DNA of 37,472 nt from Deltaproteobacteria bacterium (GTDB lineage Bacteria; Desulfobacterota; Desulfobaccia; Desulfobaccales; Desulfobaccaceae): positions 1 to 37,472 of the forward strand of contig JAFDGA010000021.1 of the NCBI GenBank assembly GCA_019309545.1, given 5' to 3'. This document shows, one piece after another, positions 19,975 through 29,413 of this stretch (positions are counted from its first letter, which is position 1; the number at the start of each line of letters is the position of its first letter). The notes below the pieces were generated by a model. It worked only from the letters and a program-made list of their open reading frames with translations, made no database searches and was not told the origin of the DNA. A program made the translations under genes and the position numbers.

Positions 19975-20059
19975 TTAATTTATCCTATTTAATACCTTAT
20001 CACTTGCCCGCCTGCCAATCAATAAAAGTCATAGGGGCGAAGGTCTGTTACTTGGTGTA

Positions 20060-20135
20060 TTTAAAAGGTTAATTTGAGGGGAGGGCCGGAGGACCACCGG
20101 CCCCCCGCCCTCCCCTCAAGCTCCCCTCCCACCCC
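20060..20135 (+). repeat. Intergenic repeat, copy 1
   Basis: The copy begins with the core TTTAAAAGGTTAATTT (20060-20075). A G-rich arm (20077-20090) and a C-rich arm (20097-20115) follow and can form a strong hairpin, then CAAGCTCCCCTCCCACC. It lies between the 5' end of meaB and the 3' end of the DUF72 gene. Copies 2 and 3 are at 29342-29413 and 27800-27855. Confidence 0.75.
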
Positions 20136-24450: not shown

Positions 24451-24497
24451 CGGAGAAAATTTCTCTTTTCCGGAGGAAAAATAATTCTAAATCCCAG

Positions 24498-24520
24498 AAA
24501 AAAAGGCCGGAACCCCGGCC
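24498..24520 (-). terminator. Intrinsic terminator of the structured RNA
   Basis: On the minus strand GGCCGG-GGTT-CCGGCC (24520-24505) is followed directly by seven T (24504-24498). No protein gene on this strand leads into it, which supports a separate RNA transcript ending here. Confidence 0.85.
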
Positions 24521-24740
24521 CGGATAAGAATAACCCCAGGTAACCACGCTGCTGACTGCCCCTCACCGCCAACCTTTTCAATCTCTTACTCCTCTGCCAC
24601 TTTCATCCTCTCTTGTTGGGAATTCACCGCTTCCTTTCGGAGGCGGAACTTCCTTAAAGAGATTCTGAAACCAACAGCCATCCAAGATTTACTCGGGTTG
24701 CCAGCCATTGACAACCAGTGCCCCTTGGCTTCCTGGGGTC
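24498..24740 (-). ncRNA. Structured non-coding RNA, unidentified (6S-like candidate)
   Basis: No convincing protein gene lies here, but all parts of an RNA gene are present on the minus strand. A consensus promoter (24747-24775) predicts a start at about 24740. The 5' end ACCCCAGG (24739-24732) is complementary to 24540-24533 near the 3' end, giving a closing stem. Inside, 24716-24710 pairs with 24702-24696 as a hairpin; 24670-24667 and 24664-24657 pair with 24579-24576 and 24587-24580 as a long-range helix; and 24646-24627 folds into a GAAA-capped hairpin. A 6-bp GC stem plus seven U ends the RNA, for a length of about 243 nt. One long irregular rod closed by its ends is the general shape of 6S RNA, but I cannot confirm the family. 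RNase P, tmRNA and small SRP RNA signatures are absent. Confidence 0.7.
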
Positions 24741-24746
24741 AATTTT

Positions 24747-24775
24747 ATAATAATAACTGTTGTTGTATTTGTCAA
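24747..24775 (-). promoter_or_regulatory. Consensus sigma70 promoter of the structured RNA
   Basis: On the minus strand a perfect TTGACA (24770-24775) and TATTAT (24747-24752) are exactly 17 bases apart. This is the strongest promoter seen in the window. It points away from the epimerase gene and into a stretch without a protein gene. Confidence 0.85.
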
Positions 24776-27437: not shown

Positions 27438-27882
27438 GGGTCGGATTCCTTTAACCGCTGTCTCGGAGATTTCACCTACCAGACATTGCTCACAGCCTGA
27501 ACATCAGATGCATGGCGTTGCATGAATTGGGGCATCAGGGTCCTAATAAAGTGCTTTCAAAGGAGAAGGGGATTTAACCTAATGTCTTGGTTAATGAATC
27601 CCAGTCAGTCTTTTTGTATATTTTGGGATAACCGGGAAAAATAATAACTGGCAAGCATCTTGAGTGATCCATTTATATATTATCATATTTAATAACTGCC
27701 CTTCAAGGCAGTGTAGATTTGCCTTACCTAGTTTCGCCACCGTCTATAGCTCTTACTCGGGTCGCAAAAAATGGATGGGGGCAGAGAAAAACCGCTTTTG
27801 GGAAGGGGGAGGGGCCGACAATCCCCCTTTTTCCCCATCAAATTAACCTTTTAAATGCTTCGAGAAATAAATAGCCGTTGCT
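27438..27882. other. Intergenic region between fumarase beta and the orphan kinase
   Basis: 445 bp without a supported gene. It contains a hairpin (ACTGCC/GGCAGT, 27695-27712), which on the minus strand is followed by a T/A-rich stretch and might end fumarase transcription, and copy 3 of the intergenic repeat at 27800-27855. A 20-codon frame at 27582-27644 (+) has purines in front but no other support. Confidence 0.5.
27800..27855 (-). repeat. Intergenic repeat, copy 3 (inverted)
   Basis: Read on the minus strand, the same core TTTAAAAGGTTAATTT (27855-27840) is followed by a G-rich arm and CGGCCCCTCCCCCTTCCC. The core is identical to copies 1 and 2, while the hairpin part is diverged. It lies 28 bases downstream of the fumarase beta stop. 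Confidence 0.6.
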
Positions 27883-29305: not shown

Positions 29306-29341
29306 CTTTTTTTCTCATTTATATCTTTATGTTACTCCGCG

Positions 29342-29413
29342 TTTAAAAGGTTAATTTAAGGGAGGGCCGGGGGACCGTCAGCCCCCCTCTCCCCTCAAGC
29401 TCTTTTCCCCACC
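29342..29413 (+). repeat. Intergenic repeat, copy 2
   Basis: The core TTTAAAAGGTTAATTT (29342-29357) is followed by a G-rich arm and a C-rich arm (to about 29395), then CAAGCTCTTTTCCCCACC. It closely matches copy 1 over its whole length apart from small changes in the arms. It lies between the 5' end of fumarase alpha and the 3' end of the hybrid kinase gene. Confidence 0.75.

Follow-up and report, generated by a model that had tools for sequence, protein, structure and literature searches.

The RNA locus and its predicted fold

The stretch of DNA that we analysed (the window) comprises 37,472 nucleotides of contig JAFDGA010000021.1, from the 2.43-Mb draft genome (G000) of a sulfate reducer of the Desulfobaccaceae, and on its minus strand, just ahead of a small protein gene, it holds a predicted RNA of about 240 nt (24498-24740), which its fold and its homologues resolve into a 207-nt sealed rod and a terminator. 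The unit is preceded by a -35 hexamer TTGACA (24770-24775), the same in all four copies that we recognise, and, after a 17-nt spacer, by a -10 hexamer TATTAT (24747-24752); with a score of 11 out of 12, this promoter (24775-24747) was the top site of 20 promoter-like sites within 10 kb. Seven nucleotides separate the -10 hexamer from the first base of the stem in each of the four copies. That closing stem, P1, pairs a 5' arm ACCCCAGG (24732-24739) with a 3' arm CCTGGGGT (24533-24540), is kept in every copy, and continues beyond an A/A mismatch into an extension whose 5' arm, AGCCA (24726-24730), has its partner near 24542-24546 and is paired in all cells of the alignment. Farther along the rod, a GAGUA segment (24690-24694), well conserved among family members, occupies an internal loop opposite an A-rich strand, and fold and alignment together place the apical hairpin, the length of which differs among copies, at 24627-24646. 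In the window RNA, the GAGUA segment can be read as a loop E, but this reading was rejected, since the strand opposite does not keep GAA in the orthologs. Immediately after the rod comes an intrinsic terminator, a 7-bp GC hairpin (24504-24521) followed by a T run to about 24498, which was the top terminator-like site within 10 kb and has counterparts at the same place in all four copies. The sequence-only reading had named TTGACA-N17-TATTAT, exactly this closing pairing, further internal helices, and a GC hairpin with its U run (24521-24498), and all were found, the stem and the helices being present in the predicted fold.

Energy folding of the whole 244 nt gave one rod plus the terminator hairpin at -106.5 kcal/mol; its 200 dinucleotide shuffles averaged -80.2 +/- 4.9 kcal/mol, a difference of 26 kcal/mol (z -5.4), and none of them was as stable. 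The homologues, folded singly, had z values of about -5.5 each, and the three orthologs each formed one rod independently. Since the complement of the rod also folds well (z -4.2), the assignment of the strand rests on the promoter and the terminator. The combined architecture of promoter, end-sealed fold and terminator is rarer than chance, as judged by a homology-free scan of 2.53 Mb of a sister-genus genome (G004). No single rod was found there, and the one match with a closing helix of at least 6 bp was branched, with six hairpins, and cobalamin-riboswitch-like; in the control, the same scan recovered four of four family members as rods, the closing helix of one (the G002 copy) being only 3 there. 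The cobalamin-riboswitch-like RNA, identified by eye, lies in G004 from L129 2486 onward, behind a perfect TTGACA-18-TATAAT promoter.

Conservation and covariation within the genus

The two genus mates that were compared (G001 and G002) both have the RNA at the syntenic position, upstream of the 80-aa gene P0001, and both orthologs keep the promoter, the sealed stem and the terminator. Identity among orthologs is 66-67% for the RNA, 67-72% for the promoter and terminator, and 78-79% for the downstream gene; over the 100 bp that precede the promoter, it falls to 30-40% and the sequences are hardly alignable. The divergent upstream gene differs, being an epimerase gene in the window and one for a HemB-like protein (named by eye) in G001.

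To the orthologs can be added a second copy from the window genome, described below, and the arms of the four sequences were combined in an alignment (A5), in which 40 consensus pairs were left and 93% of cells pair. Ten of the 40 pairs change on both sides, a number reached by none of 500 shuffles (4.4 +/- 1.5), so that the covariation is real but thin, as it comes from four sequences, three of them orthologs, and from a structure computed from the same sequences. Controls in which the structure was slid along the alignment had only 1-3 pairs changing on both sides. Between helices 5 and 6, two thirds of the way up the rod, all copies have an unpaired loop of roughly 7 x 7 (A5 columns 71-77/102-108).

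The search for a conserved reading frame on this strand gave only short ORFs that do not match one another in the three orthologs, and the indels that distinguish the orthologs are not multiples of three. The sequence-only reading had seen no convincing protein gene on the strand and had suggested looking among relatives for covariation; the short, unconserved ORFs bear out the former, and the latter yielded the compensatory changes given above with no reading frame kept. What the sequences show is a self-contained transcription unit, with selection on its product to form an end-sealed rod.

A second copy in the same genome

A covariance model of the three orthologs (R1), with the second copy left out, was searched over 29 genomes of the order and found one extra locus, in the window's own genome (G000:C1:108146-108394, minus strand; 27.6 bits, E 8.8e-4), with no other non-self match above 15.3 bits. 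Because a rod matches the model on either strand, with scores of 19-45 bits for the reverse one, the model score of this copy is not overwhelming by itself; combined with its anatomy, the case is overwhelming. The copy has a promoter, TTGACA-17-TATATT, with the RNA beginning 7 nt after TATATT, P1 arms AUCCCAAG/CUUGGGAU that carry two compensatory changes relative to the window P1, a rod with a fold z of -5.5, and a GC terminator at its end. In the aligned arms, it shares 61% identity with the window RNA and 50-53% with the other two. Its neighbours, both named by eye, are a BamD-like gene, which it follows, and a convergent NAD-synthase gene, which it faces; by synteny, it was not found at the corresponding place next to nadE in other genomes. 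The earlier claim that this structured RNA has a gene to itself, complete with promoter and terminator, is well supported by conservation across the genus, by covariation, and by a second copy of like anatomy beside a convergent gene.

The window genome also has a dispersed intergenic repeat, the core of which, TCAAATTAACCTTTTAAATGC, occurs in the window at 20057-20077 (-), 27838-27858 (+) and 29339-29359 (-) with 0-2 mismatches, where 0 would be expected by chance. Its longer unit is present at about 40 places in the genome, with weak matches only in the genus mates, and one of these repeats immediately precedes the second RNA copy's promoter.

Known RNA families and the reach of the new one

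A comparison with Rfam 15 gave no family above its gathering threshold at the locus, the sole match in the window being a tRNA. The sequence-only reading had suggested 6S RNA, perhaps a diverged one, and a search of Rfam, which gave neither 6S nor any other family at the locus, speaks against it: no match to 6S (RF00013) appeared in cmscan down to E 10 at the locus or down to E 5 at four homologous loci, and the bona fide 6S of the genome lies elsewhere, at C11:30530-30712 (56.2 bits, above the gathering score). With no model match and a canonical 6S on C11, membership in that family was rejected. A 6S RNA is present in seven of seven genomes of the family, and the new-family model gave only noise scores on twelve 6S loci. 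The end-sealed rod looked for in 6S (about 180-200 nt) is found in the window RNA and its homologues as well; their largest internal loops total 11-14 nt, but the large single-stranded central bubble expected of 6S does not emerge reliably even when genuine 6S RNAs are folded by energy. SRP RNA was also rejected, having no match at the locus and its own gene at C2:57797-57894.

A further model (R2) was searched against 395 genomes of the phylum (with strict filters), 36 relatives, and the genomes of the genus and family. Outside the genus, no relative was found in the 395 phylum genomes, the 36 relatives, or four sister-genus genomes, and within the genus and family genomes, R2 returned the four known copies plus opposite-strand self-matches and noise. 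For the complete sister-genus genome G004 (3,282,536 bases), 2.53 Mb (77%) was searched by cmsearch without prefilter, again with no relative found, the best match having 15.6 bits, an E of 0.83 and many broken pairs. A pattern scan for both ends of P1 across 84,980 species returned the two genus mates and, apart from these, a single match in a planctomycete, which was in a different context (a repeat) and was taken as chance. A synteny search upstream of the P0001 homologues of the sister genus did not find the RNA, nor was a relative found in IMG/VR or in phage and plasmid records. The genus to which the family is confined is the genus of Desulfobaccaceae sister to Desulfobacca. The sequence-only reading had associated strong promoters of this sort with abundant housekeeping RNAs; the searches of the sister genus, in which the RNA was not found, count against a universal role of that kind. 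The new class that had been offered as the alternative to 6S fits, with the restriction that it is a class of one genus.

Possible modes of action

What the locus encodes is real, new at the level of the family and ordinary in kind, i.e., a lineage-specific structured small RNA. With moderate confidence, we favour a new genus-restricted family of trans-acting structured small RNAs, each from a stand-alone noncoding gene and most probably acting by way of a protein that it binds. A strong promoter of the sigma-70 type would set the start of the transcript flush with the closing stem, and the RNA, presumably abundant, would form a single long rod that is closed by its ends, is interrupted by short conserved internal loops and finishes with its own terminator. 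Stable once folded, it could then act in trans, binding or titrating a protein via the rod and its internal loops. It is the shape that suggests that a protein is bound, and action through a protein is preferred over pairing with mRNAs because little of the RNA is single-stranded. RNA polymerase is a candidate partner, purely by analogy with 6S and Ms1 (PMC4191392).

The gene that follows the RNA invites a different explanation, that the rod and terminator form a cis-acting leader or attenuator governing read-through into P0001. P0001 (24208-24450, minus strand) lies outside the RNA and encodes an 80-aa DUF2007-like protein (Pfam E 0.0032, below the cut-off); just 5' of its start codon is a short inverted repeat, GAGAAATTTTCTC (24453-24465, minus strand), with a similar form in the orthologs, and a clear ribosome-binding site was not seen at the start. 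RNA and gene are adjacent and in the same order in three of three genus genomes, and P0001 starts about 47 nt past the T run, with no promoter-like site found in between. A leader would have a co-directional gene after every copy, and this was found at the three orthologous loci but not at the second copy, which cannot be a leader because it faces a convergent gene and so has nothing to control. Moreover, P0001 is conserved across the family (60-89% identity) while its linkage to the RNA occurs in one genus only (three genomes), the sister-genus homologues standing without the RNA; a conserved anti-terminator was not seen, and the terminator loop varies between genomes. A leader role is possible at the window locus and not at the second copy, and as an account of the RNA we consider it quite unlikely.

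The other explanations depend on what the rod itself might do. As a special case of the protein-bound RNA that we favour, it may be a second, strongly diverged RNA-polymerase-binding RNA that mimics an open promoter without being an ortholog of 6S. The strong promoter and the end-sealed rod, about 210 nt long, are as in 6S and Ms1 (PMC4191392), and the roughly 7 x 7 loop present in all copies would suit such a role, but in the predicted fold the loop is small and the rod mostly paired, a canonical 6S is already in the genome, and neither the 6S model at these loci nor the family model at 6S loci gave a match; we regard this as unlikely. Regulation of mRNAs by base-pairing through exposed loops would agree with a stand-alone gene and a terminator U-tail, common among base-pairing small RNAs, yet nearly the whole RNA is within the rod and we saw no long unpaired segment that is conserved and could serve as a seed, making it a rather improbable mode of action. 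That the rod is a decayed repeat or a chance structure, functionless as RNA, might be supposed from its restriction to one genus and from a genome full of intergenic repeats; compensatory changes, together with a promoter spacing and a terminator kept among four copies that are about 50-89% identical, make this very improbable. Barely credible, finally, is an RNA that sequesters CsrA in the manner of CsrB/RsmY: CsrA is encoded in the genome and GGA occurs six times in the window RNA, but the 4-10 triplets per copy are no excess over dinucleotide shuffles in any of the four copies, and most of them lie in helices or internal loops. The many GGA in hairpin loops expected of such a sponge were not found, and it was rejected.

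If transcribed, the RNA stands for a new family of structured RNAs that Rfam does not contain, from a group of sulfate reducers that has been little studied, and with a distribution so narrow that comparative pipelines could miss it. Its two diverged copies in one genome offer a ready-made test of which loops are important. A bolder and doubtful proposition is that a rod RNA binding RNA polymerase, or forming some other RNP, arose within one genus, coexists there with the canonical 6S and was duplicated in one genome, giving a new family of protein-regulating RNAs; a rod RNA beside a canonical 6S raises the question of whether other lineages have evolved polymerase- or protein-binding RNAs of their own.

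Comparison with known systems

At the window locus, the order of a closed P1, then a terminator, then a gene is like that of a terminator-type riboswitch or leader, from which the family differs in its second copy without a gene to control and in having no conserved anti-terminator that we could see. With CsrB/RsmY, it shares a stand-alone gene with a terminator and a CsrA in the genome, but not the enrichment of GGA or its placement in hairpin loops. The likeness to 6S (RF00013) is closer, i.e., a rod of about 200 nt with sealed ends, an internal loop and a stand-alone gene, although the window RNA is mostly paired in its predicted fold, with small loops, an intrinsic terminator of its own, a range of one genus and no match to the 6S model. 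Ms1 comes from a different phylum, the Actinobacteria, its central bubble is clear and its partner is core RNA polymerase; no sequence relation between it and the window RNA was seen. Yet Ms1, too, is a long hairpin that is specific to one lineage, bears an internal loop and was recognised via synteny and structure and not via sequence (PMC4191392), and in its lineage specificity, its hairpin shape and its internal loop, the window RNA is like it.
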